A stretch of DNA of 64,000 bases from a bacterium HR17 (GTDB taxonomy: Bacteria > Armatimonadota > Fervidibacteria > Fervidibacterales > Fervidibacteraceae), in NCBI GenBank assembly GCA_002898575.1, contig BEHT01000017.1, forward strand, positions 1 through 64,000, in the 5' to 3' direction. Below are positions 2,433-29,552 of the stretch, piece after piece. How positions within the stretch are numbered: position 1 is the first letter of the stretch; each line of letters starts with the position of its first letter. Made by a program: the position numbers and the translations under genes. The notes beneath the pieces are model-generated. The model was not told where the DNA came from, did no database searches, and worked only from the letters and a program-made list of their open reading frames with translations.

Positions 2433-3548
2433 TTACGGTTTCAACCAAAGCGACCAAGGAAAGACGACGGTTTGGTCGTGTTTGGCGTCCCAAACCAACT
2501 GCCATGCGAATTCCATCTTGTTCGGGTTGGCAGGGTCGGGGTCAGGCAGCACTTTGTCGTCGCAAACGATGTAAGCGGTTCGGATAACGGGCGGGTTGGG
2601 TGCGACAGGTGGGACGACGGGAAAGTCAGAGCCGATCGTGACCCGATACCAAGTGTTGTCGCGGAAGCCACTAAACAGCCAGCGCAAAATTTCCTCGCGC
2701 TTTTTCGCTTTGACCTCGGCAGGCAAATCGCTCTTTGCCAGTTGCTCCAGCACCTTGTCTGTCTCCGACAAGTCAAACGGCACCCAGCCGTAAGGTGGCA
2801 GGAAAACTTCCACCTTGCAATGTGACGGCGAGCGGCGCTTGAAGGGGTTGACACCGTAAGTGATGCGGGCAGGGATGCCCACACTGCGCAACAGCGCCGT
2901 CGCAAAGCCGTGATAGTCGCTGCAATGACCGATGCGTTTCGTCAAAGCGTGCAAGGCGCTGGCTTGCAGCGAACATTCACCGTGTGAGTAGGTCATTGTG
3001 TCCATCACAAATTGCAAAATGCGTTTTGCCCGCTCAAAGGGTTCGGTTGTATCGCCTGCTGCTTTTTGGGCAACGGCTCTAATGCGCGGGTCATCTGTGA
3101 CGATACGGCTTTCATTCCGTAGCCATTCGGGCATGGATGCTTCCAGATATTTCGCCACCCTCATTGGGTCAAGCCGCCAATGCAACTCCCAGACGCGGAT
3201 TTTCAGGCGGTAGCGAATGACTTGCGCTCCATCGGGGTTGTCCAAGCGGAAGTAAACGAGATGGTTGCCGTAAAGCGGGTCAGGGGCTTCCATCGTGGGC
3301 GGTGGTTCGGTCTCAAATTCCAGCACCTGTTGACCAGCATCATCGGGTGGTTTGACCAGCCAAACATGTGCCACCTTCGTGCCCAGCGGCGGCGTGAAGA
3401 CCAGCGTGGCAGTGATGTCATAGGTGACGGGGTTCGTTCGTTCCGCTGGCTGGAACAATCCGATGCGTGGCGCAGCGCTTTGCGCCGCCATGACAGCGAC
3501 AACGGCAGCCACAACCAAACCCACCAGCGTCCAACGCTGAAGCGTCAT
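2433..3548 (-). CDS. Exported transglutaminase-like protein
   Basis: A 371-residue protein with an N-terminal signal or anchor segment (about residues 6-25), a beta-rich middle region and a C-terminal transglutaminase-like papain-fold domain. The expected triad is visible: Cys209 in GHCSDYHGF, His in SHCKVEV and Asp in PFDLSE. Bacterial members of this superfamily act as periplasmic peptidases or amidases, or have unknown substrates. The ATG at 3548 has AAGGAGGTG upstream. It is in line with the aquaporin gene (61 bases between them). A pilin-operon terminator at 3607-3629 separates it from the upstream gene. Confidence 0.85.
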   Translation of the reverse strand: MTLQRWTLVGLVVAAVVAVMAAQSAAPRIGLFQPAERTNPVTYDITATLVFTPPLGTKVAHVWLVKPPDDAGQQVLEFETEPPPTMEAPDPLYGNHLVYFRLDNPDGAQVIRYRLKIRVWELHWRLDPMRVAKYLEASMPEWLRNESRIVTDDPRIRAVAQKAAGDTTEPFERAKRILQFVMDTMTYSHGECSLQASALHALTKRIGHCSDYHGFATALLRSVGIPARITYGVNPFKRRSPSHCKVEVFLPPYGWVPFDLSETDKVLEQLAKSDLPAEVKAKKREEILRWLFSGFRDNTWYRVTIGSDFPVVPPVAPNPPVIRTAYIVCDDKVLPDPDPANPNKMEFAWQLVWDAKHDQTVVFPWSLWLKP

Positions 3549-3606
3549 CCAAGCACACCTCCTTGCACTATTCAATGCATCAACATCCGTTTATGCGTCC
3601 CACAGT

Positions 3607-3629
3607 AAAAAACGCTGCCGCAGGGGCAG
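3607..3629 (-). terminator. Rho-independent terminator after pseudopilin gene
   Basis: On the minus strand CTGCC-CCTGC-GGCAG forms a 5-bp stem and is followed two bases later by six T. It lies 18 bases past the stop at 3648 and before the transglutaminase ribosome-binding site, so it should end the ModA-like/pseudopilin transcript. Confidence 0.7.
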
Positions 3630-3647
3630 TAAGTTCCCGGAAAAGCG

Positions 3648-4295
3648 TTACTTAAAATTGTCAATCGGACGCCCGTGAAAGACGGCGACGCGCCCGTCCA
3701 TGCGAGCGCAAAGTAAGGTAAGGGCGTGTTCGTAATCATGCGGGAAGCGAGGTGCACGCGGCCAGAACCAATCGGTCAGCATCCAACTATCGGGCGATGC
3801 AGTGGCTTCATGCAGGGCGCGCGGAACAAAGGGAGGAAATGCAGGATAACGCTCCGACCAAGACCAAAAGTGGTAACTGATGTTGCCGACTTGCCAGTTT
3901 TGTTCGGTGGACAAAATCGTCGGGTCCCATTGAGCGCACAAGGCGGCGCTGGGGCAATACCAGATGCCGTGCGTGCGAATATAGGGGTGCAGCGGGCGCA
4001 CTAAGCGATTGAGCCGATCCAAAGTCGGCGCTCCAGGGAAGCCAGGGTCAACGACTGGTCCGTAAGTGCCAGCGGTGCGGTAGGAGTTGCAGTGGAAGCG
4101 GTCAACGGGGTAGGCTTCGTCCCAATCATTGCTGTAGCATTTGCAGGCTAAACCCAGTTGCCGCAAGTTGCTCAGGCACGCCGTCATTCTCGCTTTCTCC
4201 CGCACACGGGCAAACACGGGAAACAGGATGGCTGCCAAAATGGCGATAATCGCGATGACGACCAACAACTCAATGAGCGTGAAGGCACGACGCAT
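3648..4295 (-). CDS. DUF1559 pseudopilin (H-x9-DG protein)
   Basis: A 215-residue secreted pilin-like protein. The N-terminus [20 protein letters not shown] is a class III (prepilin peptidase) leader plus hydrophobic helix, with cleavage expected before Phe4 and Glu at mature position 5. Further on the chain has the family's Cys-rich globular part. Near the end, [12 protein letters not shown] fits H-x9-DG, although the usual following H-x-KW is replaced by RVAVF. GGAGGG precedes the ATG at 4295; a GTG nine bases up is too close to that site. It lies 15 bases downstream of another DUF1559 gene. Confidence 0.88.
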
Positions 4296-4310
4296 CGCGC
4301 CCACCCTCCT

Positions 4311-5072
4311 TCACTGCGGTTCATTGCCGTAAAGCGGCACCCAATACTGCTGGTAATAGCCTTCGTTGGCGTAGAACATGCGCCCGCGCAGCAAACTGGG
4401 GCGCATCCATTTAGCGTGCCCATCGTAGAAGGCGATGTCAAACCCATCTGAGTGGCGGTTGGGGTAGTGGATGGTTTGGGCACCGGGAACACCTTCAAAG
4501 GGGTAGAAGGGCGGGATAGGTGGGACGACAGGCTTTTTGCGGGTGTCGGCGCAGCCAGGGGTTCGGCGATGGTCCCAAATCACCATCGCCGTCGTGTTGG
4601 TCACCGCCCCGTCAGGCAACCCCATCGGTGAACCTGTCACATAAGTCATCGCGTAGCCGATTTGCCACTGGGGCTCCTCTGGGCACTTGAAAATCTGTTC
4701 GTTGCGGACATACGGGCGCAGCAAATAGCGTTGCGGGTCAAAGCCCGCTGCGGGCGGTTGGTCAGGTGCCACGCGGTTGTCATACGGTCCCCACCAAACT
4801 TCGCTGGGACCTGTGTAGTAGGTCGCGTCAGGTAATCCCGCACAAAACGGGTCAGTCCAATCGGGGCAAAAGCGATAGCGCACATTGACCTCGTCGTAAT
4901 CGTTGCGGTAACATGCGACGGCTAATGCCATGTTGCGCAGGTTGGACAGGCAACTGGCTTGACGCGCTTTGGCTCGGGCACGACTGAACACGGGAAACAG
5001 CATCGCCGCCAGAATGGCGATAATCGCGATGACGACCAGCAACTCAATGAGCGTGAAGGCACGACGCCCCAT
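4311..5072 (-). CDS. DUF1559 pseudopilin coupled to ModA-like gene
   Basis: A 253-residue pilin-like protein with leader [20 protein letters not shown] and the C-terminal motif [16 protein letters not shown] (H-x9-DG). The mature domain begins with the conserved CLSNLRN segment seen in all six copies here. Its ATG shares one base with the TGA of the ModA-like gene (TGATG at 5070-5074). It therefore lacks its own spaced ribosome-binding site and is probably translated by coupling. The frame continues upstream, but that part overlaps the binding-protein gene in another frame and is not credible. Confidence 0.88.
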
Positions 5073-5887
5073 CACTTTGCATCCCCCTTGTTTTTCCCGC
5101 TTGCCAGCGCCGGCGGGTTGACGCAGTAGCCGCATTGGGCGTAACAGCGTTTGCCGTCTTTGGACGCCAGGAAATTGACAAAGCGTTGTGCCTCTTTTTT
5201 GTCGCGGGCGAAGACCGTCACGCCTGCCGGGATGTGGCGCACCCGCAGCACATCCGACGGAATAGGGATGTTGTCCATCGGCGTATCGGGATACCAGTAG
5301 GCGAAAACATCCCAACCGATGATGGCGTCAACGGTGCCGAGTTTTATCTGAGCAGCCAAATCGGCACAGTCTTTCGCTTGCATGACAATGTTGGGCTTCA
5401 CTTTGTCCCACAAGCCCGCTTTGCGCAGAATCTCCACGGCTACATCGCCCAAGCAGACGGAACCAGGCGTAGCGATGGCAAGGCGGATGTTGGGTTTAGC
5501 GAGGTCGTGCAGCGACTTGATACCTTTGGGGTTACCCTTGGGCACATTAATGACAGGCACGAGCCAACTGATCACGCGCACCGATTTGGGGTCAATGATA
5601 CGGTCTTTGATGGCTTTCTCCATATAGTCGTCGCTGCCAGGCACATAGACATCGCCCTTGCGGGCGAGTTTCATTTGCGACAAGACGACCCCCGAACCAC
5701 CGAAAGTCAGCCGCACTTTAACGCCATAGCGCTTCTCGTAAAGGCGCGCCGCTTCCGTCAGCGGCGGCAAATTCGCCGCCCCCGCAAACACATGTAACTC
5801 CTTGGTTGGACGCTGCCCCCCCTGCGCCATCAGCAGTGCCGCACCGCTCAGTGCCCAAATAATAGCCGACCAAACCAGCCGACGCAC
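5072..5887 (-). CDS. ModA-like periplasmic anion-binding protein
   Basis: A 271-residue extracellular solute-binding protein. Residues 1-21 are a signal peptide, and the mature part starts with [14 protein letters not shown] and continues with the FGGSG segment typical of ModA/type 2 periplasmic binding folds that bind molybdate, tungstate or similar oxyanions. Near the end [10 protein letters not shown] gives three closely spaced Cys, which is unusual. GTG at 5887 is the start, with GGAGGT seven bases upstream. No ABC permease or ATPase gene is near; the next gene is a pseudopilin joined by a TGATG overlap. Substrate assignment is uncertain. Confidence 0.78.
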
Positions 5888-5934
5888 CTAACTCACCTCC
5901 GCCGCGATTTCGGTAGGTCGCTGTGCCCTGCTTT

Positions 5935-6034
5935 GTTGAATTGCCTTTCGGCAGTGCCTCGGAGGGGCGCGTCCCCTGACGCGCCCCTGGTTTTCACGCC
6001 ATTTTTCGGCGGCTCAGGAGAGCCGCCCTCCGAC
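5935..6034 (+). repeat. Dispersed two-hairpin intergenic element, copy 1
   Basis: This is the best-preserved copy. Hairpin 1 is GGGGCGCGTC-CCCT-GACGCGCCCC (5964-5987), a perfect 10-bp stem. Hairpin 2 is GGCGGCTC-AGGA-GAGCCGCC (6008-6027), a perfect 8-bp stem. TCGGA (5959-5963) and TCCGA (6029-6033) can close a third, outer stem, giving a three-way junction. A T-rich linker joins the hairpins. Other copies are at 15351-15452, 22444-22526 and, inverted, 57619-57722. Confidence 0.85.
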
Positions 6035-6163
6035 CAAACCCCGTTGTTCAACCCAGCACCCTGTCCGACGGTAAAAGCGCCTGTTACGCTATTGCGCCGG
6101 CGCTGGACACCGATAACGCCGGCAGCGAGCGAAAAGTTCCATGGGTGCGGGACCGATTTTCAC

Positions 6164-6186
6164 GCCCCTCGGCGCCGAAGAGGGGC
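6164..6186. repeat. Inverted repeat upstream of HAD gene
   Basis: GCCCCTC and GAGGGGC form a 7-bp stem around a 9-base loop that itself contains GGCGCC. It lies 70 bases before the HAD start codon, with no T-run after it on either strand. Leader structure or an operator are both possible. Confidence 0.4.
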
Positions 6187-6255
6187 TTTAGGGGCAGAGC
6201 GGTATGCCCTATCAGCAACGAGGAGGCTCATTCGGCACGCAAAGGAGGATTCGCC

Positions 6256-6933
6256 ATGCAGCCGCGAGCGGCACTGTTTGACTTAGACGGCGTGCTCATC
6301 GACTCGTCGCCGTTCCACTACGAAAGTTGGGTCAAACTGGGCGAAGAAGTCGGCTTCGTGATGACGCCAGAACTGTTTCGCCAAACCTTTGGGCAACGCA
6401 ACGACGCCATTTTGCGGCGTTTGACCCCGCAGGCAACAGAGGAGCAGATTCGCCAATGGAGCGAACGCAAAGAAGCCCTGTATCGCCAAGTGGCGCAAGG
6501 ACGGCTTCAACCGTTGCCAGGTGCGGTGGAACTGGCGCGGGGGTTGAAGGCGTTGGGCTTCAAGGTGGCTATCGCTTCGTCCACGCCGCACCGCAACATC
6601 CAATTTGCGTTGGAGCAGTTGGGCATCGCAGACTTGTTTGATGTGCTTGTCGGTGCGGAAGATGTGACAAGGGGCAAACCCGACCCCGAAGTGTTCTTGA
6701 CGGCGGCGTCCCGTTTAAGCGTCCCACGCGAGCGCTGCGTCGTCTTTGAAGACGCTATCGTTGGCGTCCTCGCCGCCAAACGAGGTGGAATGAAGTGCAT
6801 CGCCGTGACGACCACCAACCCCCACACCCTCTTAGCCGACGCCGGCGCCGACCTGATCGTGGACCGTCTATCTGACCTCACACCCGAGCAAGTCGCCGCT
6901 TTGCTGGACGCTGAACCTTTTCAGTTAGCCTAA
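6256..6933 (+). CDS. HAD-superfamily sugar-phosphate hydrolase / phosphoglucomutase-like
   Basis: A 225-residue HAD subfamily IA protein. Motif I FDLDGVLIDSS is at residues 8-18, motif II is in IASSTP, and the motif III Lys and motif IV acidic residues are in GKPDPEVF and VFEDAIVG. The alpha-helical cap after motif I resembles beta-phosphoglucomutase and 2-deoxyglucose-6-phosphatase. These enzymes use the first Asp as nucleophile on sugar phosphates; whether this one is a phosphatase or a mutase cannot be told. AAAGGAGG lies just upstream of the ATG at 6256, which I prefer to the longer frame. Confidence 0.87.
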   Translation: MQPRAALFDLDGVLIDSSPFHYESWVKLGEEVGFVMTPELFRQTFGQRNDAILRRLTPQATEEQIRQWSERKEALYRQVAQGRLQPLPGAVELARGLKALGFKVAIASSTPHRNIQFALEQLGIADLFDVLVGAEDVTRGKPDPEVFLTAASRLSVPRERCVVFEDAIVGVLAAKRGGMKCIAVTTTNPHTLLADAGADLIVDRLSDLTPEQVAALLDAEPFQLA

Positions 6934-6972
6934 ACTGTCGGAACACAAGCGGCGCGTGGCAGGGCAGCCCGC

Positions 6973-7770
6973 TCAATAAGCAGCGAACAAGACAACGCTC
7001 ATGCCACCGTCAACGGGTAGGGTAATGCCGTTGACATAGTTGGTGCAGGTCGCCAAGAAAATCGTCGCCGCTCGCAGGTCTTCGTAAACACCGATACGGT
7101 TGGCAGGCGTCGCTTGGAGAAATCGGCGCAACCGTTCGGGCTCGCGCTCCAGCACAGTGCGGTTCAAATCTGTCGGGATCAGCCCGGGTGCGAGGGCATT
7201 GACACACAACCCGTAGCGCGCCCACTCACACGCCAGTTGCGCCGTCAACGCCCGCACGCCGCCTTTACTTGTCCCGTAAGCAGCCACATACGGAATGGCG
7301 CGCAAACTCGTCTCGCTGGCGACATTGATAATATGCCCGCGCCCTCGCGCGATCATGCGCTTGCCGACGATTTGGCACGCCCGCGCCACGCTCAACAAGT
7401 TGACCGTTAAGATGTCCTCCCACACTTCTGGTGGGATGTCCTCGGCGTTGTAGCGGGCGAGGACGCCTTGCGCGTTGACGAGGATATCAATCGGACCGAA
7501 CTCCGATTCAATCCAATCGCAGCAGGTCATCAACGCCGATTCGTCGCGGGCATCAAACGCCAATTTGTTCAAGTCAACGGGGTGAGGGTAGGGATGCCTT
7601 TGTGCGATGGCGTTGACGGTCGCTTCCACTTTTTCGCGGCTGCGGGAAGTCGGCAAAACGACGGCTCCTTCGTCCGCGAGGAAATGCGCCATCGCCGCGC
7701 CGATAGCGTTGAACCCGTCCCGAGCCGTCCCGCCGATGACCAACGCCACTTTGCCGTCCAATTGCCCCAT
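6973..7770 (-). CDS. SDR-family NAD(P)-dependent oxidoreductase
   Basis: A 265-residue classical short-chain dehydrogenase/reductase. The cofactor loop has GGTARDGFNAIG rather than the usual TGxxxGIG, NAQG stands for the NNAG motif, and the catalytic residues are Ser in VASETS and Tyr/Lys in YGTSKGG. VDGG close to the C-terminus is also typical. The closest-looking functions are gluconate 5-dehydrogenase or 3-oxoacyl reductase, but the substrate is not readable. The ATG at 7770 is preceded by GGAGGTC. The gene lies convergent to the HAD gene and follows prmA in the same direction. Confidence 0.87.
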   Translation of the reverse strand: MGQLDGKVALVIGGTARDGFNAIGAAMAHFLADEGAVVLPTSRSREKVEATVNAIAQRHPYPHPVDLNKLAFDARDESALMTCCDWIESEFGPIDILVNAQGVLARYNAEDIPPEVWEDILTVNLLSVARACQIVGKRMIARGRGHIINVASETSLRAIPYVAAYGTSKGGVRALTAQLACEWARYGLCVNALAPGLIPTDLNRTVLEREPERLRRFLQATPANRIGVYEDLRAATIFLATCTNYVNGITLPVDGGMSVVLFAAY

Positions 7771-7863
7771 GCCCCAGACCTCCTTACCGCGCAAAGCGTA
7801 AACGGCTTTAATTTGGCTGGGTGTAGCGCTTCCGCCTTCATTGATGTCACAAACGGGTAGCGG

Positions 7864-8739
7864 TCACAGCGTCGCTTGAAAGGCGACCCACCCGTCCACG
7901 CAGCGTTCGGCGTGGATGCGATAGCCCAATTTTGTCAGCACCGCCCGCACCTCGTCCCAACTTTCAGCGCTGATGCCCGAACCGATCCAAACGCCCTCAG
8001 ATGCCAAAGCACGCCGCGATTGCAACTGCCACGCCAAGTCTTTGATTTGCGGCGCCAGCAGGTTGGACAAAACCGCATCAAATTGCCCCTCAACGCGCCG
8101 CAGCAAATCGCTTTTGACGAAATGGATGCGCCCTTCCACACCGTTGCGTTGCGCGTTGTCACTGGCGGCATCCAATGCGGCGTCATCAATGTCTGTCGCG
8201 ATGACTTCTGCCGCTCCCAGGAGCGCTGCCGCGATGGCGAGGATGCCAGAACCCGTCCCGATGTCCAACACGCGTTTGCCAGCGATGGGCAATCGCTCCA
8301 ACCACTCCACACACATGCGGGTCGTCGGGTGATGCCCTGTCCCGAACCCGCCCAAACTGCGCAACCGCACGACGATGCGCCCTTGCAGGTTATCCGCTGG
8401 CTCATCCGTCAGCGTGACTAAAAAGCGGTCGCCGATGGGTAAAGGCGGGAGCACTTGCCGCAGCGGGACTTCCCATGCGTCTGCGTCCAACAGACGGGTC
8501 GTCACTTGCGGCGACCGTTGCAACCAACCGTGCGCAACGGCGTAATCCAATTGCTCCGAAAACCCGATCAATTGCTCGGTCACACCCTCCGTCGCCGGAA
8601 GGTAGCCGACAACTTGAACCGTCCCGTCAGAGGCAAAAGTTTGCGCCGTTCCCGTGCACCCGCAATTGAGCAGCAACCCAGTCACGACTTCCGCATCAGT
8701 TGCGGCAGTGGTTACTGCAATTTCCAACCATGCTACCAT
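7864..8739 (-). CDS. prmA: Ribosomal protein L11 methyltransferase
   Basis: A 291-residue SAM-dependent methyltransferase. The family signature GFGTGHHPTT leads into the SAM-binding loop VLDIGTGSGILAIAA, and SNLLA supplies the post-II NxxA motif. PrmA trimethylates ribosomal protein L11 in the cytoplasm. The N-terminal substrate-recognition domain (about residues 1-90) is present but diverged. I take the ATG at 8739 (VAWLEI matches the usual family start); no strong ribosome-binding site is visible. The AraC-type gene diverges from it across 59 bases. Confidence 0.88.
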   Translation of the reverse strand: MVAWLEIAVTTAATDAEVVTGLLLNCGCTGTAQTFASDGTVQVVGYLPATEGVTEQLIGFSEQLDYAVAHGWLQRSPQVTTRLLDADAWEVPLRQVLPPLPIGDRFLVTLTDEPADNLQGRIVVRLRSLGGFGTGHHPTTRMCVEWLERLPIAGKRVLDIGTGSGILAIAAALLGAAEVIATDIDDAALDAASDNAQRNGVEGRIHFVKSDLLRRVEGQFDAVLSNLLAPQIKDLAWQLQSRRALASEGVWIGSGISAESWDEVRAVLTKLGYRIHAERCVDGWVAFQATL

Positions 8740-8798
8740 GATTAAGTGACACCGCTCAGTATTTTGGCGCACCTCTTGGAAGGAGACACACAAACGAG

Positions 8799-9800
8799 AT
8801 GCAAAGGGCTGGGGCGCCGTTGCTCACGACGCTTGCCAATCTGTTGCGCGGGCGCGTGTTGCCTTGGGTGCGGCACGGTAGTGTCCCAATAGTGCCGTGC
8901 CTTCCGCAAGGCGTGGCGGGCACAATCCCTCGCGGTGTGACGGTGCGGGAAACTGCCCCTCCGTCTGAATCCCCGAAAGTGCTCCGCCGAGGTTGGGCAG
9001 CTTCGCATCTGTGGGTCAACGATCACCTGTGTGCCTATCGGTTTGCTCATTTGGCTGTCGTTTTGGAAGGGGTCGCGGAAGTGCGCATCGGTCAGGTTGT
9101 CATCTGCGCCCCGCACGGCACTTGGCTGTTCGTCTCCCCCTCCGTGCCAATTGACGACGACATCGCCCACGCCCACTGGACTAAGATGGCGGCTGCTTCG
9201 TCAATACTTTGGCTGTTATTAGCCCCTTTCGTCGTGAGGGTGCATGTGTGTTTCACCGAAGGCTATCACCATTGGGGAACGCCGGGGCAATTTCTGTGGT
9301 TGCCTGAAGCGATCTTTGTGGCTGACTTGCTTCAAACCGAGTTAACCCAGCGAGGGGAAGGGGCGGACGAGGTCGTGGCAGCATGTCTAACTGTCCTGCT
9401 TTGGCGGCTGCTTCGGGCGACAGAAGGTGTCGCCTTCCCCACGCCGGTCGCGCTGCAGCCTTTACCTTCAGGGTCGTTAGCCCACCGTGTGCAGCAAATA
9501 CTCTTGCACAACTTGCAGCAGGCTTACTCCCCGAAAAAGATCGCGCAAGCCTTAGGCATAAGCCCGTCTTATCTACGCCACCGATTTAAGGCAGAGACCG
9601 GACGAAGCCTGCGGGCGTACACCAACGAGGTGCGCCTCCAGTTAGCCCGGTTGTTGCTGCAGCGCACCGATTTGCCCATCGCCGTCGTCGCCCAGTTGCT
9701 GGGGTTTGGCAGCCCATTTCACTTCACCCGCTGGTTCCGTCGCAACTGCGATGTGCCTCCGTCCACATTGCGCCGTCCGCCGATATTGGGGAGACCGTGA
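8799..9800 (+). CDS. AraC-family transcriptional regulator
   Basis: A 333-residue regulator with a C-terminal AraC DNA-binding domain at about residues 228-325. Two helix-turn-helix units are visible: one around KKIAQALGISPSYLRHRFK, the other around AVVAQLLGFGSPFHFTRWFR. The N-terminal part, about 220 residues, resembles an effector-binding cupin-like region only loosely. It diverges from prmA and is followed by a pseudopilin gene. A GGAG element lies 13 bases before the ATG, a long spacing, so the start is less sure. Its target genes and ligand are unknown. Confidence 0.85.
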   Translation: MQRAGAPLLTTLANLLRGRVLPWVRHGSVPIVPCLPQGVAGTIPRGVTVRETAPPSESPKVLRRGWAASHLWVNDHLCAYRFAHLAVVLEGVAEVRIGQVVICAPHGTWLFVSPSVPIDDDIAHAHWTKMAAASSILWLLLAPFVVRVHVCFTEGYHHWGTPGQFLWLPEAIFVADLLQTELTQRGEGADEVVAACLTVLLWRLLRATEGVAFPTPVALQPLPSGSLAHRVQQILLHNLQQAYSPKKIAQALGISPSYLRHRFKAETGRSLRAYTNEVRLQLARLLLQRTDLPIAVVAQLLGFGSPFHFTRWFRRNCDVPPSTLRRPPILGRP

Positions 9801-9893
9801 TAGGCAAATTTATCGGCGTTTTGTGCATTTGCCCGCTCGTAAGAGAGGTCGCAAAAGTTAAGGCGACGCAAATTCACGAGGAGGTGATAGCCG

Positions 9894-10718
9894 ATGCGCC
9901 CGTCGGCTTTCACGCTCATTGAGCTGTTAGTCGTCATCGCGATCATCGCCGTGCTGGCAGCCATTCTGTTCCCCGTCTTCAGCCAAGCCCGCGAAAAAGC
10001 CCGCCAAGCCCAATGCGTCAGCAATGTCCGCAACATCGCCATGGGCTTCATGCAGTACACCCAAGATTGGGACGAGCGGTTTTACGCTCAGCCGACCCCG
10101 TGCGATTTCGGTTTAGCCAACCCCGCCCTCGCCGATTCGCACCCGCCTTATTACGCCGTGTTGCAGCCCTATTTGCGCAACGCGCAGGTGTTCGTGTGCC
10201 CCAGTGCCCCACAGGTCTTCGGTTGCGCCCAGCCATCGTGCAAGTTGTATTGCAACACCTTTCCCAACACCTACGGCTATAACGACCTACTCAATCACGC
10301 CGTAGATTACGACGACCCCCGCAATTTGCCGGCAGGCTTTCTGAAGAACAAAGGGGCATGGTCGCGGTTACCCACCATTCAAGAGCCCGCCCGCTTCTTC
10401 GTGCTGGGCGATTGCGCGATGGGTTTGGTGTGCACCCCCAATGTGACCCGCGACGGCATCCAGTTACGGGTCGCATTAGCCAATTACCCGCCCTGTCAGA
10501 AAGGGTTGGCATGCTTCTGGAACTTGACCGGACGGGATGTAGAGCAGCGGGTCGGTAACATCGCTACCGTCACGCGCCATTTGGAAGGCAGCGAAATCGT
10601 TTTCGCGGACGGTCACACCAAATGGTTTCGGTGGCAGACCGTCCGTGACGCCCGTTTGGGCGGTCCCATTCAGTTCGGTGCCGATTGCCGCCCCTCATGG
10701 GTGGCGGCATTTCAATGA
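9894..10718 (+). CDS. DUF1559 pseudopilin (H-x9-DG protein)
   Basis: A 274-residue pilin-like protein with a short class III leader ([12 protein letters not shown]) and the shared helix [20 protein letters not shown], then CVSNVRN. Close to the C-terminus [16 protein letters not shown] fits H-x9-DG. The interior holds several Cys. GAGGAGGTGATAG lies before the ATG at 9894. A 66-residue membrane protein gene follows 39 bases later and probably shares the transcript. Confidence 0.9.
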
Positions 10719-14153: not shown

Positions 14154-14993
14154 TTAATCGCCACTTGTGCCCGGACCGCCGATCTCGTAGATGGAAATCT
14201 TGCCGTCCTGGCGGGGCAGGTGGGGGCGGAAGATGTTGGCACAGTTCTGTGCCAGTTTGCTCCATGTCTCCCATTTCGCATGGCCGTCGGCGTAGGTCAA
14301 GATACTCCCGCCCAAGTGGCGGGTGTTTCGGGTGCTGCGGCGACGGGTGTAAGGCTGCTCCGCCTCCCACGCCCCACAGCCTTCATGTGGGGCGCAAGTG
14401 TCAGCCCAAATAGCGCGCCGCCCTCCGCAACTGGAGAAGTGGGGGGCGTCTGCAAACGCCGCTGTGCTGGCAGGAGCAGGCAATTGCGCGAGGCGAATGG
14501 GACGACCGTTCCAGTTACAAGTCAGGCTAATCATGAGAGGTTCGTTATAGCCAATAGAAAGCAAAATGCCGTTGAAGTCAGGTGGGAAATGCCAGTTCGT
14601 CCAAGTCCAGTTGGATGCCCCGGTGTAACCCAGATCGCCCAGTTCAGGTTTAGGGTGGCGCACCAGTTGGATGCCCCGCTTGGCAGACGGACACTGCCAG
14701 ATTTGGGAGTTACGGGCATACGGGTGCACTTGCCCCTGAGGAAGCGTCCACGCCTGAGGAGGTAAGGGTTGTCCACTGTTGTTAGGACACGCCGTCGTGA
14801 AGGGAAAAGTTTCATCGTAGTCCTGCACATACTGGGTTACGGCTAAGCCGACATTGCGCATGTTGGAAAGGCACTGGGCTTGCCGTGCCTTCTCGCGAGC
14901 CTGGCTGAACACGGGGAACAGAATCGCCGCCAGGATCGCGATGATCGCGATGACAACCAACAACTCAATCAGCGTGAAGCCACGATAACGCAT
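14154..14993 (-). CDS. DUF1559 pseudopilin (H-x9-DG protein)
   Basis: A 279-residue pilin-like protein. Leader MRYRG is followed by [20 protein letters not shown] and [23 protein letters not shown] is the H-x9-DG motif. Cys residues in the middle may form disulfides outside the cytoplasm. The gene follows the 78-residue membrane protein gene by 35 bases and probably shares its promoter (15306-15335). It ends 60 bases from the convergent Clp1-like gene. Confidence 0.9.
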
Positions 14994-18926: not shown

Positions 18927-21900
18927 TCATTCGCGCAGGGTAATCAGAGCTGCTTTACGCAAGGTAACGAGGGCGTCAGGGTCAGGCAGCAGCGCTGTTG
19001 ACCGCAGCCCGCCTTGGTTGGGGATGCGCACCAACGAGCGGGCATGTTCCAACACTTTGCGCGCCCGTTCCGCTTTTGCGCCTCGCCATTCGCCGTTGTG
19101 TAATCGCCGCTCTATCGCCCGAAAGAGCAAGTAGTCTTCAACGCCGTCGCGCACTTGCATCAAGCGGATGGACGGCAGTGGCTCAGAGCGTCCAAACCGT
19201 TCGCCGGGATAGACGAGATAACCGTCCCCGTTTGGGTAGCGCACCCAGTAGTAGCGTTCACCCTCGTCGCTTTGGCGGATGAAGGTGTGCCAACCCCGCT
19301 CCCAAGGGTCGTAAGTCCACCACGAAACGCCCCAAAACTCGTAGCCCGCCACGCCGTAAGCGAAGCACAAGTAAGGCAGCAACCGTTCAATTGCCAAGTA
19401 GGGCGTGTCAATGCACATGTGCCCGTCCGTCGTGAACCACAGTTGGGCGCCTGCGCGTTTCAACCGCTCCATTTCGGCGACGGAGCACGAACCGTGCGGA
19501 CCGATGCCCCAAATGTCCAAGTCGCCGACCCAATCGGGCACAAATTGCCAAGTGCTTGAGTAGATGCGGATGCCTTCCGTCGCTTCATGTGCCAAAGCGC
19601 AAAGTTGCTTCATTTGCTTTCGGACGCGTTCGTGCCAGAAGTGCGGTTCGTCCGAGATGTAGTAAACGAACCTGTCGCCCCATCCTTTCTGGCGCACATG
19701 GGCAAAAAAGGTTCGCAGCAGCGCTTGATAGGCACGGTTGTATTCGGGCGTGAAAGGCTCAAGGTCAAAGAAGCGCTTGGGCGGATATGCCCAACCGAAG
19801 GCGTAAAGAAAACTGGGCGTGTAAAGGGTGCGCACCTTCAGTTCGTCCAGCAAAAACTGTGCCATTGCGTCAAAGCCTCCAGCGTCCATGCGAACTTTGC
19901 CGTCCTCGTGACGGAAAGTCGGCTCAGGAATGACGAAGCCGGGCGACAGGCGGTAGCGGGCAAGGAAGCGATACCACGCTTTGAGCCGTTCGGGGTCCGC
20001 TTGCAGTTGAGGGACGATGCGCCCGCGCAAGTCAAAGATGACAGTGAGTTCCGTCTCCTGCGGGAGCGTCAACGGCACGACTTCCACTTGAACGGGCAGC
20101 GTGAGCGTCCGCGATGCAGCGCTGATGCGGATTTGACCCTCATAGCGCCCCGCGGGCGCATCAGGTGGGGCGTAGAACACGAACCAAACCGCTTCGGTGC
20201 GGTTGGGGTGCAAATCAAAAGGCTGCAGCGGTGTCAACGGGTCAGCCCATTCGCCTGCCCAACCGTCGCTGCTGCCTTGCCCTTTGGGCACGAGCCGATA
20301 CCATGCGGGCAGTTGCGACGAATAGTAGGCACTGGGATGGTCAACAGGCACATAGCCGACCCGCCACAGTTCGGGCGGCGGCAAAATGCGCCCTTGCGCA
20401 TCTTTCAACGCCGTTATTTCCACGCGCACTTGACGAACGGGATGGTCGCTGCGCAACGCAATTTGCACCGATTCATACTCGTTGCGCACCATCAGCACCG
20501 CAATCCGCTCGGGCATCGGCTCAGGCGGCGTGTCGGGAAACACTTTGACCAGCGGGTTGATCGCCCAAACTTGTAGGGGCGCGGCGTTGCGTGCTCGCAG
20601 GTTCTGGGCTTGCCGTTCCCACTCGCCGACAACGGCTTGCAAAACTTCACCGAAAAAGACCCCGTCGTGCCAAAAAGTGCCCGGCGCGTTCGTCGTCAGG
20701 TGCAGTTCAGCGAACGCAGCATCGCCAGGGCTTTCCACGAAGGCGAAAGTGTGCGTCCAGCCTTGCCCTGCAGCGACGGGCGGATGTGTGGAGAAAAAGG
20801 GCGCTTGTTGGCTCAAACGGTGCTGCGCATCGTGCCAATGCCCGTGCAGGCGAACGGGTGTCGGGGTGTTTTCAGTTTTGATGAACCCGCTGTAAAAGTA
20901 GGTGCGGTTGGGCTTGACAGGAACGGGCAACCGCCAACCGACCCATTGCCCTTGGAGGGCAGACGCAATTTGCAACTGCGCCGCTAACTCACCAAATTTG
21001 CCTCCGGGCACAACTTGCGCCACAACCCCTTGCCGTCGGTCAACCTGCCAAAACTTCGGCAACCCTGTGTCCCGCTCCTCAAAACTCGGGTTGGGCACGA
21101 GGTTGGCGGGACTAGACAGCAGCGCCGCAGGATCGCGTTCGCCTTCGCTGGCTGCGGTCGCTGAAAGGTAAAGGTCAAACCGCTTGGCGCTTCGCGGAGG
21201 CAAGGTCGCAAGGAACAAAACGCCGTCGCCCAACCGCCAATGGGGGCAAATGCGCTTGCTTGGTGGGGCTTGTGGGTCAACGATGCGCAACCCGACAGGA
21301 CGACGCACCGTTGAAAAACGCCAAAGGACTTTGCGCAAATCGGCATAAACAAGGGCTGTCGTCGGTTGACCGTCAAAGTGATAGACCGTCAGCGGAACGC
21401 GCTCGCGCCACACGGTCGCGTCCGTCCACGCCGACGCCTGCGTGTGGGGCGTCAGCCGCATCGTTTCCACGCTGGTGACTTGCACCCGTAACGGCAACTC
21501 ATCTTTGTCCAACAGATCCAACGCCGCATCGTCAAACCATGCGATGCCCGTTCCGTAAAGCACCGTGCCGACGGTCGCGTAGCACCCGTTTGCGGGGACG
21601 GTGAAGGTGAACTCAACGGGGCGCCAATCGTAAGTGCCGTCGCCCGCGTTGAGCACCTGATTGACGAGCCATTCGCCTTTTGTCCCGAAGACATGGATGA
21701 ACCAACCGACCGTGCCCTTTGCGTTTTGCGCCTTCACCCAGCCGCGCAAGCGATAGCGCTTGCCGGGCAGGACGGGAATTTGCGCCTGTTGAAATTTGAC
21801 CCAAGATGGCGGCGCGCCTTCCGCGACTATCGCTTGCACTGACCGCTGTCCCGTTCGCGCGACGCCTTGCCCCCAAACCAGGCGGTGCAGGGCGTCTTCG

Positions 21901-22379
21901 TCAACGCGCTCCCAATCGTCGGGGTCATCGTCGCCTGCTTCAAAACTGCCGTTGACCAAACTCGTGCGGATGAACTCAGGGGGCGACCACGCTTGCGGGT
22001 TGTCGGCATAGACGAAGTAGCGGACGGTCGCCTTGGCGGGCACTTCAACGAAGAAGGACAAACGGTCGCCGACTTGCAAAGCGCCGTTGCGTCGGGGTGT
22101 GCCTTGCGCCGTCCGTAGGTCATATTGCAACTCTAACCCGCGCTCGTCGCAGAGGCGAACGGCTTTGACCTCCTTACCCGCCAAAGGCAGTGACGGAAGC
22201 GCTGTGCCGATGGACAGCGTGATGGGCACACCGATTTGAGGTTGGTCGCTGGTGTTCGTCACTTGCACGACGGCGCGGGTGCGCCAATAACCGTTGCCGT
22301 GATAGGCAAGCGGGTGATGCCATGCCCCTGACGCTGACGCCGCCACCGCTAACGCCATCGCGCTGCACCACTGTCGCAT
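18927..22379 (-). CDS. Large exported glycosidase-like protein with DUF4091
   Basis: A protein of about 1,150 residues with a signal peptide. The first 700 residues are beta-rich, with carbohydrate-binding-like segments (for example a galactose-binding-like part around residues 140-290). The C-terminal third is a DUF4091 (GH123-related) TIM-barrel-type domain with YYISDEPHFW, where Asp-Glu is the expected catalytic pair, and EFWGVSWWTYDPW. GH123 enzymes cleave beta-N-acetylgalactosaminides. The start is uncertain among ATG 22388, GTG 22385 and ATG 22379; the last is best for the signal peptide. It is transcribed away from the NlpC/P60 gene. Confidence 0.83.
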   Translation of the reverse strand: MRQWCSAMALAVAASASGAWHHPLAYHGNGYWRTRAVVQVTNTSDQPQIGVPITLSIGTALPSLPLAGKEVKAVRLCDERGLELQYDLRTAQGTPRRNGALQVGDRLSFFVEVPAKATVRYFVYADNPQAWSPPEFIRTSLVNGSFEAGDDDPDDWERVDEDALHRLVWGQGVARTGQRSVQAIVAEGAPPSWVKFQQAQIPVLPGKRYRLRGWVKAQNAKGTVGWFIHVFGTKGEWLVNQVLNAGDGTYDWRPVEFTFTVPANGCYATVGTVLYGTGIAWFDDAALDLLDKDELPLRVQVTSVETMRLTPHTQASAWTDATVWRERVPLTVYHFDGQPTTALVYADLRKVLWRFSTVRRPVGLRIVDPQAPPSKRICPHWRLGDGVLFLATLPPRSAKRFDLYLSATAASEGERDPAALLSSPANLVPNPSFEERDTGLPKFWQVDRRQGVVAQVVPGGKFGELAAQLQIASALQGQWVGWRLPVPVKPNRTYFYSGFIKTENTPTPVRLHGHWHDAQHRLSQQAPFFSTHPPVAAGQGWTHTFAFVESPGDAAFAELHLTTNAPGTFWHDGVFFGEVLQAVVGEWERQAQNLRARNAAPLQVWAINPLVKVFPDTPPEPMPERIAVLMVRNEYESVQIALRSDHPVRQVRVEITALKDAQGRILPPPELWRVGYVPVDHPSAYYSSQLPAWYRLVPKGQGSSDGWAGEWADPLTPLQPFDLHPNRTEAVWFVFYAPPDAPAGRYEGQIRISAASRTLTLPVQVEVVPLTLPQETELTVIFDLRGRIVPQLQADPERLKAWYRFLARYRLSPGFVIPEPTFRHEDGKVRMDAGGFDAMAQFLLDELKVRTLYTPSFLYAFGWAYPPKRFFDLEPFTPEYNRAYQALLRTFFAHVRQKGWGDRFVYYISDEPHFWHERVRKQMKQLCALAHEATEGIRIYSSTWQFVPDWVGDLDIWGIGPHGSCSVAEMERLKRAGAQLWFTTDGHMCIDTPYLAIERLLPYLCFAYGVAGYEFWGVSWWTYDPWERGWHTFIRQSDEGERYYWVRYPNGDGYLVYPGERFGRSEPLPSIRLMQVRDGVEDYLLFRAIERRLHNGEWRGAKAERARKVLEHARSLVRIPNQGGLRSTALLPDPDALVTLRKAALITLRE

Positions 22380-22443
22380 GCTCACCATCTCTCCTTCGGT
22401 AAGTTCAGCAAAAACCCACCAGCGTTTGTGAACTGTCCCTTTA

Positions 22444-22669: not shown

Positions 22670-23320
22670 ATGCGTGGGCGTTGGTGGTTGGCGGTCATCG
22701 TTGGTGCGACCGCCAGTGTGGTAATGGTGGCGCAGAGTGTGCCGCCTACCTCCCCGCAAAAGAAAGTAATCGTCAAAGGGTTCGCCGATGTCGTGGGAGC
22801 AAGACACAAGCAGAAGCAGCAACAACAAGGAGCCGCGCCGTCTCGGGCTGCACCTGCGAAGGTCGGTGCGCCACAGCGTATGTTCTCGCACCCTTCAAAG
22901 TCCAACGCCGCAACGGCGCAAAGTAGCGGTGCCGCTTTAGTGCGCACAGCGCGGCGTTATTTGGGGTTGCGTTACCGCTATGGGGGCAGTTCACCCTCGC
23001 GTGGATTTGATTGTTCGGGCTTCGTCTACTTTTTGCTGAGCCGTTACGGGATTCGGGCGCCGAGGACGGCAGCGGAACTTTTTCGCATGGGCGTGCCCGT
23101 GAAAAAATCGGCGTTGCGCCCTGGCGACTTGGTCTTTTTCCGCAACACGGCACGGCGCCGCGGTATCACCCATGTCGGCATTTACATCGGCGACGGCAAG
23201 TTCATCCATGCGTCCAGTGGACGCGGGCGGGTGACGGTCACGCCCTTGAGTGACCCTTACTACGCCGCGCGGTTTGCGGGAGCGCGCCGTTTGCCTGTGC
23301 GCGGTGGCGATGGTAAGTGA
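22670..23320 (+). CDS. NlpC/P60 peptidoglycan endopeptidase
   Basis: A 216-residue exported cysteine peptidase. A signal peptide (1-24) and a Lys/Gln/Ala-rich linker lead to the NlpC/P60 domain (about residues 88-210). Catalytic Cys is in GFDCSGFVYF, His in THVGIYIG and a third polar residue in FIHASS. These enzymes cut stem peptides of peptidoglycan. AAAGGAGG lies upstream of the ATG at 22670; an upstream in-frame ATG at 22499 reads through repeat DNA and is rejected. The last 83 bases overlap the 3' end of the sigma-54-like gene on the other strand. Confidence 0.9.
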   Translation: MRGRWWLAVIVGATASVVMVAQSVPPTSPQKKVIVKGFADVVGARHKQKQQQQGAAPSRAAPAKVGAPQRMFSHPSKSNAATAQSSGAALVRTARRYLGLRYRYGGSSPSRGFDCSGFVYFLLSRYGIRAPRTAAELFRMGVPVKKSALRPGDLVFFRNTARRRGITHVGIYIGDGKFIHASSGRGRVTVTPLSDPYYAARFAGARRLPVRGGDGK

Positions 23321-24530
23321 CGGTGCGACGGCTAAGGCGAACGCCCCATCGCTGCTGTAGGTAATCGGCGATCTGCTGGTCACTCCAATCGGGATAGGTG
23401 TGGAAGAGGCGGGCAACGATTTCCTGCGTGCGGGGCAGCAGGTCAGTTAACGGGATGCGCCCATGCGGTGTCTTGATCCACTGCCCTCGCACCAACCGGC
23501 ACACGACGGAACGGTGGCATCCGATTTGGCGGGCGACTTCGGCTTGCGTCAATGGGCGCAGCGAGAGCGGAGCACCCGTCACTAAAAACTCTCTCTGGGC
23601 TTGGCACACACGATGCACCAATGACGCCAAAACGCCGCTTCGCTCGTTAAGCGCCTGCAGGGCGTCCAACAGATCGGTCAACGCCGGCGCAGTGCCCTGT
23701 CGGCGTTTCCACTCCGCCAATCGTTCCCAATCAATGAGGTAGCGCAGATAATATCGCTGCTGAACGAACCGCCAACGCACTTGCCCCTCGTTGTCCACCC
23801 ATACTTCTGCCAATAAGGAGTCGGTCGCCGGCACCTGCGGCAAGGGCTCCATGGTAAGCGGTGCGCCGACGACCATTTCTTGCACTTCCAAATGATCTAA
23901 AGCGTCCAGCAGAGAGCGGGCTTCCGCAACGGAACAACCGAAGCGCTGGGCGATAACTTCCGGGGAATAACGCCCGCTGAGGAAGTAGTCCACAAACTCT
24001 TGCTGGCTGACGCCGTAGCGGCGGACGAAATCCGTCGCCAAATCTATCAGCTCCCCGAAATCGTCCACGCCGCTGGGAGCCGGCACCGCCTGTTCGTCAC
24101 GAAAGTCAGCCAGCAACATGTCCTGTCGCGGTGGGGTATACTGGCGCAGGTAACGAATCACCCGCCGCAATTCGCGTTCGGGGACGCCCCATTGTTGTGC
24201 CCAATCGGGCAGAAACTCTTCCGCACGAGGGTGCGTTAAAAGGAATTGCCACTCAGGGCGGTCGTAAAGACGGTGGCGATGCACAAAGGCAACGGCATGC
24301 CGTTCCATGAAAGCCAAATAGCGGTCACGGGGAAGGTAACGGTCCCATCGCAGTTTGCGGATGACCCCTGCAGACGCCAGCGCGCGGAACAATTCGTGCC
24401 TTTCCACCCATTCCGCCAATTGACGGGCACTCTGTTCAGACGCAAACGCACGCCGCCAATGCACTGAGGGGCGCCGCAACGCTGGTTTTAACTTGGGGTG
24501 CACGGAAGGGCGCAATCGCATCTCCGTCAT
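23238..24530 (-). CDS. Divergent sigma-54 (RpoN)-like protein
   Basis: A 430-residue protein related to sigma-54 over its core-binding and DNA-binding regions. The central part (about 120-320) matches the sigma-54 core-binding pattern, ending in QREFLVTGAPLSLRPLTQAE. The HTH segment follows (about 324-365; RQIGCHRSVVCRLVRG, KTPHGRIPL). The end has SRRTVTYHRHR (about 400-410) in place of the RpoN box ARRTVAKYRE. The glutamine-rich activator-contacting region I is missing or unrecognisable; the N-terminus is Arg/Pro-rich instead. GGGTGAT lies seven bases before the ATG at 24530. No AAA+ enhancer-binding protein or -24/-12 promoter was seen nearby. Confidence 0.75.
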   Translation of the reverse strand: MTEMRLRPSVHPKLKPALRRPSVHWRRAFASEQSARQLAEWVERHELFRALASAGVIRKLRWDRYLPRDRYLAFMERHAVAFVHRHRLYDRPEWQFLLTHPRAEEFLPDWAQQWGVPERELRRVIRYLRQYTPPRQDMLLADFRDEQAVPAPSGVDDFGELIDLATDFVRRYGVSQQEFVDYFLSGRYSPEVIAQRFGCSVAEARSLLDALDHLEVQEMVVGAPLTMEPLPQVPATDSLLAEVWVDNEGQVRWRFVQQRYYLRYLIDWERLAEWKRRQGTAPALTDLLDALQALNERSGVLASLVHRVCQAQREFLVTGAPLSLRPLTQAEVARQIGCHRSVVCRLVRGQWIKTPHGRIPLTDLLPRTQEIVARLFHTYPDWSDQQIADYLQQRWGVRLSRRTVTYHRHRAQANGALPQTARRSKGHSRA

Positions 24531-25583: not shown

Positions 25584-25658
25584 AAAGGACCGATCCACAT
25601 GGCACAAAATTTTCGGCGACGCCGGTCGCCCAACGCAGGGAAAGGAGGTGATTTAATT

Positions 25659-26054
25659 TTGACTGGCAAGCGCGTGCTCGTCGTAGAAGACGACCCTGCC
25701 ATCATGGAACTTCTTCATTTTTTGCTGAAGCAGGAAGGGCTCCATGTGGAAGTGGCTCGGGACGGTTTAGAGGCGTTAGACCGCATGGACGCAGCAAAGC
25801 CCGACCTGGTGCTTTTGGACCTGCGCCTGCCTAAACTGGAAGGGCTGGATGTCCTTTGGGAAATCCGCAACAATCCCCGCTGGCAGTCGGTGCCTGTCAT
25901 CATCATTTCGGTGGACGACTCACCGCACACGATGCTGCAAGGATGGCAGTTGGGCGTAGAAGGCTACTTTGTCAAACCCTTTGACCCCGATGAGTTGTTG
26001 CGCATCGTTCGGCGCGTCTTGTCGCTACCGCACGAAGCGTCCTACAATGTGTGA
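25659..26054 (+). CDS. Stand-alone response-regulator receiver protein
   Basis: A 131-residue CheY-like protein made of one receiver domain. Acidic residues are in VVEDDPA, the phospho-accepting Asp in LVLLDLRLP (about residue 52), Ser in IIISVDD and Lys in FVKPFD. There is no output domain, so it probably acts by protein contact or in a phosphorelay. I chose the TTG at 25659 because AAAGGAGGTGA, almost fully complementary to the 16S 3' end, lies seven bases upstream; an in-frame ATG at 25599 with a weaker site is the alternative. No histidine kinase is encoded nearby. Confidence 0.88.
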   Translation: MTGKRVLVVEDDPAIMELLHFLLKQEGLHVEVARDGLEALDRMDAAKPDLVLLDLRLPKLEGLDVLWEIRNNPRWQSVPVIIISVDDSPHTMLQGWQLGVEGYFVKPFDPDELLRIVRRVLSLPHEASYNV

Positions 26055-27989: not shown

Positions 27990-29552
27990 ATGCCAAACGG
28001 TTTCGTCTGGATTGTCGGCGCCGGACCGGGCGATGCGCGCTTGTTGACGCTCAAAGCCAAAGAGTGCTTGGAGCGGGCGGATGTCGTCGTCTACGACCGC
28101 TTGCTGACGCCATCCGTCATGGCGTTCATCCGCTCGGACGCCGAGTTGATTTATGCGGGCAAAGCGCCCGGCGGCGTCCAACCGTTACCGCAGTCTGCCA
28201 TCAATGAATTGCTCATCGCCAAAGCGCGAGAGGGCAAAAAGGTCGTGCGGCTCAAAAACGGTGACCCCTTCGTCTTCGGACGGGGGGCAGAAGAGGCGGA
28301 AGCCTTGGCGCAAGCGGGCATCCCGTTTGAAATCGTGCCGGGGCTGAGTTCTGTCTTCACCGTCCCCGCTTATGCGGGTATCCCGCTCACCGACCGTCGC
28401 TACGCGTCCAGTTTCGCCGTCGCCGCCGGACACGGTGCGGAAGGGAAACCTACCCCGTTTCAGGCGCTGGCGGCGGCGGAAACAGTCGTGGCGCTCATGG
28501 CGGTCAGTGAGTTGCCCCGTATCGTCGCCGAGTTGTTGGACGGCGGCAAAGACCCGCAAACACCCGCCGCTGTGATTGAGTGGGGGGCAACGCCCCGCCA
28601 ACGCACGCTTGTCGCACCCCTCGCTCAATTGCCCGACCTTGCCCGACGCCATCAAGTCCAACCGCCTGCCGTTTTGGTCGTCGGCGAAGTCGTGCGGTTG
28701 CGAGAAAGGATCGCATGGTATGAGCGCAAACCCCTCTTTGGCAAACGCGTCCTCGTCACCCGCGCGGAAGAGCAAGCGGAAGCCCTCGCTTCCAAGCTGG
28801 AAGACTTGGGCGCGGAAGCCATCCGCTTGCCACTCATCAAAATTGTCCCCGTTGACGACGAAGCGCCGCTGAACGCCGCCCTTGAACGGGCGTTGCAGGG
28901 CGGTTACGACTGGATCGTTTTCACCAGCACGCACGGTGTGCGCACCTTCTTTGAGCGGGTCTGGCAGCGCGGCGCTGACGCCCGCGTTTTCGCCTCCACC
29001 AAATTTGCCGTCATCGGTCCAGCGACAGGGGACGCGTTGCGCCAATGGGGTATCTGCTGGGACGCCATGCCCGAGCGCTACACCAACGAGGGGTTATCTG
29101 AACTGCTGACGACGCAGGTCGTCAGCGCGGCGACACGCCCACCGCGGTTTTTGTTGTGGCGGGCACATGGGGCGCGGGAAGTGTTGGCGCACCGCCTGCG
29201 CCAAGCGGGGGCACAAGTGGACGAAGTCTACGCTTACCGCACCGTCCCAACCGAGTTGCCCCCCGATTACTTGGCGGCGCTGCTCAGAGACCCCATTCAC
29301 ATAATCACCTTCACCAGCCCGTCCACCGTTCAGGCATTTTTCGCTGTGTTGGGCGAAGCGCGGGCGACACAAATCCTGCAAAACGCCGCCATCGCTGTCA
29401 TCGGTCCCGTCACGGAGCAAGCCGTCCGCCAACGGGGCTTTGTGCCCGCAATCGTTTCCGCAGTTCACACCATTGACGGATTGGTGGACGCTTTGACCCA
29501 ATCGCCCCTCGTTCGCGAAAAGGGCTCAACTGGTTGTCAGCCACCGCAATAA
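27990..29552 (+). CDS. cobA-hemD: Uroporphyrinogen-III C-methyltransferase / synthase fusion
   Basis: A 520-residue bifunctional protein. Residues 1-245 are the SAM-dependent methyltransferase (CobA/SUMT) with VGAGPGDARLLTLKA, VVYDRLL, RLKNGDPFVFGRG and the PGLSS loop. Residues 255-510 are uroporphyrinogen-III synthase (HemD) with VLVTRAEEQAE and TSPSTVQAFF. The fusion links closure of the tetrapyrrole ring with the first methylations toward sirohaem and cobalamin, and is common in several phyla. CAGGAGCGAGAGG precedes the ATG. Its 3' end overlaps the convergent TPR gene by 27 bases. Confidence 0.93.
   Translation: MPNGFVWIVGAGPGDARLLTLKAKECLERADVVVYDRLLTPSVMAFIRSDAELIYAGKAPGGVQPLPQSAINELLIAKAREGKKVVRLKNGDPFVFGRGAEEAEALAQAGIPFEIVPGLSSVFTVPAYAGIPLTDRRYASSFAVAAGHGAEGKPTPFQALAAAETVVALMAVSELPRIVAELLDGGKDPQTPAAVIEWGATPRQRTLVAPLAQLPDLARRHQVQPPAVLVVGEVVRLRERIAWYERKPLFGKRVLVTRAEEQAEALASKLEDLGAEAIRLPLIKIVPVDDEAPLNAALERALQGGYDWIVFTSTHGVRTFFERVWQRGADARVFASTKFAVIGPATGDALRQWGICWDAMPERYTNEGLSELLTTQVVSAATRPPRFLLWRAHGAREVLAHRLRQAGAQVDEVYAYRTVPTELPPDYLAALLRDPIHIITFTSPSTVQAFFAVLGEARATQILQNAAIAVIGPVTEQAVRQRGFVPAIVSAVHTIDGLVDALTQSPLVREKGSTGCQPPQ

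Follow-up and report, generated by a model that had tools for sequence, protein, structure and literature searches.

The window, the whole stretch of 64,000 nucleotides of contig BEHT01000017.1 analysed here, carries a gene whose product is best read as an activator-dependent sigma-54-type factor. We put the probability at roughly 0.78 that this factor belongs to a separate Armatimonadota clade, with a rebuilt region I and with activators (bEBPs) that have co-adapted to it. Members of the widely conserved sigma-54 family share three signature domains and an RpoN box that hardly varies. The window protein fails Sigma54_AID, Sigma54_CBD, the TIGR02395 cut-off and the box, and for this reason RpoN would be the wrong label for it; judged by its predicted fold and its association with activators, it would work like sigma-54.

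The open reading frame is intact and encodes 430 amino acids from an ATG at 24530 (with an alternative ATG at 24521) to a stop at 23238-23240. An NlpC/P60 gene (22499-23320) runs convergently towards it and overlaps it slightly, and a NAD-dependent epimerase gene is oriented divergently. Its features are as follows:

23238-24530, minus strand: divergent sigma-54-type factor gene (open reading frame, Sigma54_DBD match, family of 22, fold match)
24465-24530, minus strand: basic N-terminal arm, residues 1-22, with RRPS at its end (mostly RRPP among relatives), occupying the position of the N-terminal part of region I (family alignment)
24372-24464, minus strand: short helices, residues 23-53, in place of the region I helices (AlphaFold2 model)
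23598-23687, minus strand: 30-residue helix, residues 282-311, positioned where canonical region III has its extra-long helix (model and profile alignment)
23490-23546, minus strand: helix-turn-helix QAEVARQIGCHRSVVCRLV, residues 329-347 (Sigma54_DBD match; model helices 329-336 and 340-347)
23307-23333, minus strand: changed RpoN box SRRTVTYHR, residues 400-408 (RRTVxYHR invariant in the family)

Other genes of the window were also recorded. A stand-alone receiver-domain protein without an output domain is encoded 1.1 kb from the sigma gene (25599-26054, plus strand), a large GH123-like protein of 1153 amino acids with a carbohydrate-binding match at 18930-22388 (minus strand), and a tetrapyrrole methylase fused to the uroporphyrinogen-III synthase HemD at 27990-29552 (plus strand).

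The sole clear Pfam match of the window protein was to Sigma54_DBD (PF04552, E 3.4e-15). This match bears out the sigma-54-like C-terminal helix-turn-helix (LRPLTQAE...KTPHGRIPL) in this open reading frame that an earlier, sequence-only reading had pointed out; the helix-turn-helix is expected to make the −12 contact. Sigma54_AID (PF00309) gave no match, even at E<=10, and TIGR02395 (NCBIfam) aligned to 122 C-terminal residues with 61.5 bits, against an equivalog cut-off of 277.35. The profile was the same across the family: Sigma54_DBD matched 15/15 members tested, while Sigma54_AID and Sigma54_CBD (PF04963) each matched 0/15 at E<=0.1, and all three domains matched in 11/11 canonical RpoNs of the phylum, which served as the control. 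The sequence-only reading had proposed this search in the expectation of DBD and CBD matches with no AID. The first and last were found, and the core-binding pattern that it had called plainly sigma-54-like was not; it is the predicted fold alone that suggests such a domain.

A profile built from 15 members was run against 291 Armatimonadota genomes and gave 21 full-length matches (E<1e-90); with one further member (G259) that is cut by a contig end, the clade has 22 members among the genomes searched. The next-best matches were ordinary RpoNs, whose alignment was confined to the C-terminal part. An RpoN-box pattern scan of 84,980 species genomes recovered 16 relatives, from Armatimonadetes, Abditibacteriales, Ca. 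Zipacnadia and Fimbriimonadaceae, one of them on the same contig as the member in G046. The clade was found only in Armatimonadota. The viral contigs searched contained no member, the plasmids searched gave just partial DBD matches to ordinary RpoN-like stretches, and a single-protein scan of genome contigs gave no matches. No paper linking Armatimonadota with sigma-54 or RpoN was found under the terms tried, which is not proof of novelty.

In a tree of the DNA-binding domain the family was monophyletic (100/100), and the branch that leads to it measures 2.5 changes per column. Where it belongs among the canonical RpoNs is uncertain because this branch is very long. The family clusters away from canonical RpoN as one clade in the tree that had been suggested as a check, and the separate branch of the sigma-54 family proposed from the sequence is upheld. 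Every member has the box RRTV[ASTN]YHR, compared with RRT[VI]xK[YH]R in the canonical RpoN of the phylum, so that RRTV is kept and the canonical K-Y is replaced by Y-H throughout. The degenerate box SRRTVTYHRHR reported earlier is present, with RRTVxYHR invariant in the family.

The genome that contains the window (G000) is a draft of 75 contigs, 3.15 Mb in size and 96% complete. No canonical rpoN was found in it, and it encodes one strong Sigma54_activat protein, which lies on another contig than the sigma gene; this was the outcome of the proposed check for a further rpoN and for bEBPs, and it agrees with the observation that no bEBP sits beside the gene. The bEBP is a REC-AAA+-Fis response regulator with the loop GAYTDA instead of GAFTGA, and its gene overlaps one for a PAS-HisKA-HATPase kinase (L138 7340-10236). 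By eye, a gene for a NadE-like, glutamine-dependent NAD synthetase was also seen near the kinase-bEBP pair, both here (L138 2124-3872) and in another genome (G035, L148 1822-3570).

Across the phylum, activators were detected at E<=1e-20 in 21/22 carriers of the divergent sigma. Thirteen carriers have no canonical CBD match at all, and 12 of these 13 encode bEBPs, compared with 1/43 genomes with no detected sigma-54, divergent or canonical (p=3e-10, with the absence counts for both sigma-54 and bEBPs resting on draft genomes). The divergent sigma accounts for the fact that some Armatimonadota seem to have bEBPs without RpoN. One genome with a TGA-type bEBP and no canonical rpoN detected (G062) is 88% complete. 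Separately, a GAFTSA bEBP (L257, G273:C279:9326-9823) occurs in a genome that yielded neither a canonical nor a divergent sigma-54; it may be an orphan activator, its rpoN may be missing, or it may have another partner.

In most genomes, as in the window's own, the divergent sigma and the bEBPs are encoded at unlinked sites, and synteny around the sigma gene is kept in close relatives only, apart from sigma-kinase-bEBP operons. In two genomes (G040, L158; G257, L157) a bEBP of the NAFDGA/DAFNNA clade, the divergent sigma and a TPR-HATPase kinase lie in one gene run, and a third (G258) has the same sigma-kinase-bEBP order split over two contigs. The kinases of these sigma operons (L157 8886-11243, L158 9535-11346) have no recognised HisKA and represent an unusual sensor form.

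The association extends to the L1 loop, with which the activator contacts sigma. The pattern FG-x3-G[AS][FY]TDA and its TGA equivalent were run over all 291 genomes. The TGA pattern was present in 131 genomes, whereas GA[FY]TDA occurred in 16, all of them carriers (16/22 carriers vs 0/269 non-carriers). Counted by family, TDA was present in 11/14 carrier families and 0/31 others. The p values are 9e-22 for the count of genomes and 4e-8 for that of families, and relatedness is not fully corrected in either. The six carriers without TDA are G040, G258 and G278 (NAFDGA), G255 (GAFTNA), and G053 (72% complete) and G277 (86%). All loop variants place Asp or Asn in the hexapeptide. In three genomes with both sigmas (G008, G022, G046), a TGA bEBP lies within about 2-3 kb of the canonical rpoN and the TDA bEBP lies elsewhere. 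An exception to this pairing was seen in G055, a genome with one divergent sigma-54 besides three canonical ones: there a GAFTDA bEBP has a canonical rpoN gene on either side (L164, G055:C22, about 2900-9800).

The pairing could reflect shared ancestry only, with carriers having happened to inherit TDA bEBPs and no mechanistic link between the two. Carriers do cluster in some families, and G055 departs from the pairing. TDA also occurs with canonical RpoN outside the phylum: GAFTDA and GAYTDA are natural among the 37 EBPs of Desulfovibrio vulgaris, which were studied as sigma-54-dependent (PMC4641369), and NorR G266D is active with sigma-54, the change abolishing repression by the GAF domain (PMC2941729). 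These cases make the loop change compatible with canonical sigma-54. However, in a tree of 60 bEBP AAA+ domains from which the loop was masked, the TDA/TNA label required 9 changes (bootstrap range 8-9), of which at least 3 were forced by strong branches, so the loop change was gained or lost repeatedly and TDA sits on several separate bEBP branches. The NAFDGA/DAFNNA bEBPs formed a separate clade (100/99). Furthermore, non-carriers from carrier families lack TDA (G003 in family f1; G260 and G261 in f44), and the split by family given above runs the same way. We therefore regard descent without a mechanistic link as unlikely, and favour co-adaptation of the activators to the divergent sigma.

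A second alternative is that a former sigma-54 became a DNA-binding regulator, its DNA-binding domain kept and its role with RNA polymerase lost, while the bEBPs serve other partners or act as sigma-70 regulators like TyrR. This would fit the unrecognisable CBD and AID sequences and the fact that the DNA-binding part is the best conserved. The predicted fold argues otherwise. A profile comparison of the family with canonical RpoN gave E 1.1e-22 over 219 columns. An AlphaFold2 model with the window protein and 16 of its relatives as input (mean pLDDT 80.6, pTM 0.58) matched sigma-54 over nearly its whole length: the best 30 PDB matches were all sigma-54 chains, the top one with probability 1.00 and E 8e-8 over 462 alignment columns. 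TM-scores of only about 0.3 mean that the domain placement is different or uncertain. The model suggests a sigma-54-like core-binding domain, and the helix at residues 282-311 may be the functional counterpart of the region III extra-long helix. The N-terminal half is also conserved within the family. In the sigma-70-dependent TyrR, DhaR and HupR, the GAFTGA motif is lost or broken (PMC3162934), whereas the bEBPs found here retain the REC-AAA+-Fis architecture and a near-GAFTGA loop with F or Y and usually T. Conversion to a plain regulator is thus quite improbable, and a sigma factor that works with RNA polymerase is preferred.

Region I bears on a third alternative, in which the canonical region I is gone and the holoenzyme opens DNA alone. 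Removal of region I from canonical sigma-54 relaxes activator dependence, and the lack of a Pfam AID match in all 15 members tested counts in favour. The sequence-only reading had found region I unrecognisable and had suggested that the factor might work without an activator. The AID match is indeed absent, but region I is not simply missing: residues 1-60 hold a conserved, family-specific sequence, consisting of a basic N-terminus, RRPP and then helices. In the alignment E43, F48, L51 and G55 are invariant, and the model has pLDDT of about 88-95 over residues 21-60. The arm is poor in glutamine and has a net charge of +5 in the window protein. In 17 members, where the arm was taken as 21-27 residues, the range is +2 to +8; the first 20 residues of ten canonical RpoNs from the phylum gave −1 to +3, two further rows of this comparison being left out because they had been cut wrongly. 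By position and by the model, the arm and helices may be the equivalent of canonical region I. A degenerate AID was also sought by sequence; 0/200 shuffles scored as high at first, 21 of 2000 shuffles then reached that score, and higher scores were obtained elsewhere in the protein, so this candidate was dropped.

Besides this conserved N-terminus, independence of activators is argued against by the bEBPs kept in 12/13 divergent-only genomes, by the confinement of the changed loop to carriers, by the sigma-bEBP operons and by the REC-AAA+-Fis bEBP of the window's own genome. We consider it very improbable. Because the sigma-contacting loop of the partner activators carries a matching change, the switch appears re-tuned rather than activator-free.

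That the gene is an artefact of assembly or alignment, or an ordinary rpoN decayed to a pseudogene, which the draft state of the genome might invite, was rejected as having next to no probability, given the intact frame, the identical changes in 21 other genomes and a box whose R-R-T-V-x-Y-H-R is invariant in aligned relatives and so is not a sequencing error.

Promoters were searched in 44 genomes with the strict consensus TGGCAC-N5-TTGCW and a reversed control. Several genomes with an ordinary RpoN showed a clear excess (11 vs 1 in G219, 13 vs 5 in G089, 12 vs 1 in G241), and there was no overall excess across the divergent-only genomes. The window's own genome gave 12 vs 2; all 11 of its sites outside the window are inside open reading frames, and the twelfth (window 19849) is inside the GH123-like gene. 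Hits to the canonical promoter near bEBPs numbered 54, against a shuffle mean of 55. In the upstream regions of 41% of the window's own genome, neither −24/−12 enrichment nor a new paired motif was found, and de novo dyads came down to ribosome binding sites, the starts of prepilin-like coding sequences and an interspersed repeat. Many genes have such a prepilin-like start, among them those at window 9893-10715, 14156-14993 and 52139-52967, with at least 10 in the sampled part of the genome. The repeat is palindromic, TCGGAGGGCG-N2-TCTCC, and lies in intergenic regions (e.g. L314, with four copies upstream of 6144-6987, L307, L260, L261), in tandem at one site.

Alanine mutants of R455 and R456 in the canonical RpoN box lose −24 binding (PMC7175178). 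The counterparts of both arginines are kept in the family, and the K-Y that follows is changed to Y-H. With this change, and with no canonical promoters found upstream of genes in the regions searched, altered −24 recognition by the divergent sigma is plausible.

In the mechanism that we propose, the divergent sigma would most likely bind core RNA polymerase, as its modelled fold suggests, and hold it in a closed complex. As with ordinary sigma-54, an AAA+ bEBP would be needed for DNA opening. The change would lie in the interface with the activator and probably also in the −24 contact. Region I would have been rebuilt into the basic arm, the RRPP motif and the helices. Its bEBP partners, most of which are response regulators with a histidine kinase as counterpart, have GA[FY]TDA, or NAFDGA/DAFNNA in one subgroup, where GAFTGA would stand. 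A signal would act through the kinase to give a phosphorylated bEBP hexamer, whose ATP-driven pull on region I would produce an open complex, presumably at non-canonical promoters. In canonical complexes, sigma-54 residues 1-14 enter the activator pore, sigma-54 leucines meet the GAFTGA phenylalanine, and P17 caps the first helix (PMC9770992); the N-terminus of the divergent sigma may likewise be threaded by the bEBP. The weakest step is a contact between the acidic bEBP loop and the basic sigma arm, which we put forward tentatively and at somewhat less than even odds.

A broader reading falls just short of even odds. In it, this is a second, orthogonal sigma-54 system: a single ancient, divergent sigma that reads a promoter code of its own repeatedly recruited bEBPs via a converging acidic loop (TDA, NAFDGA) that pairs with the basic region I, and fully replaced canonical RpoN in about a dozen of the sampled genomes. 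The divergent lineage has kept the fold and seemingly the activator requirement, while its region I, its box and the sequence of its core-binding part have been rewritten, and annotation by the three signature domains would call divergent-only genomes RpoN-free. The matched loop changes form a natural record that bears on a long-standing question, the residues that set the specificity of a bEBP for its sigma-54, which could be tested by loop and region I swaps, and an orthogonal enhancer-dependent promoter system is a possible use.

Among known systems, canonical sigma-54/RpoN (TIGR02395; PF00309, PF04963 and PF04552) shares with the divergent sigma its fold, its DNA-binding domain, the RRTV core of the box and co-occurrence with bEBPs. 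The divergent sigma differs in having no AID or CBD sequence match, in the change of K-Y to Y-H, and in a basic rather than glutamine-rich N-terminus. The specialised paralogues RpoN1-3 of Cereibacter (Rhodobacter) sphaeroides are, as far as known, canonical RpoNs. They provide a parallel in that a cell can hold more than one sigma-54, each with its own activator (PMC11999139); the divergent sigma, in contrast, lies outside the recognisable family and is the only sigma-54 detected in 13 genomes. The natural and mutant GAFTDA activators of D. vulgaris and NorR carry the same loop substitution as the bEBPs described here. There it works with canonical sigma-54, whereas within Armatimonadota only genomes that encode the divergent sigma have TDA.
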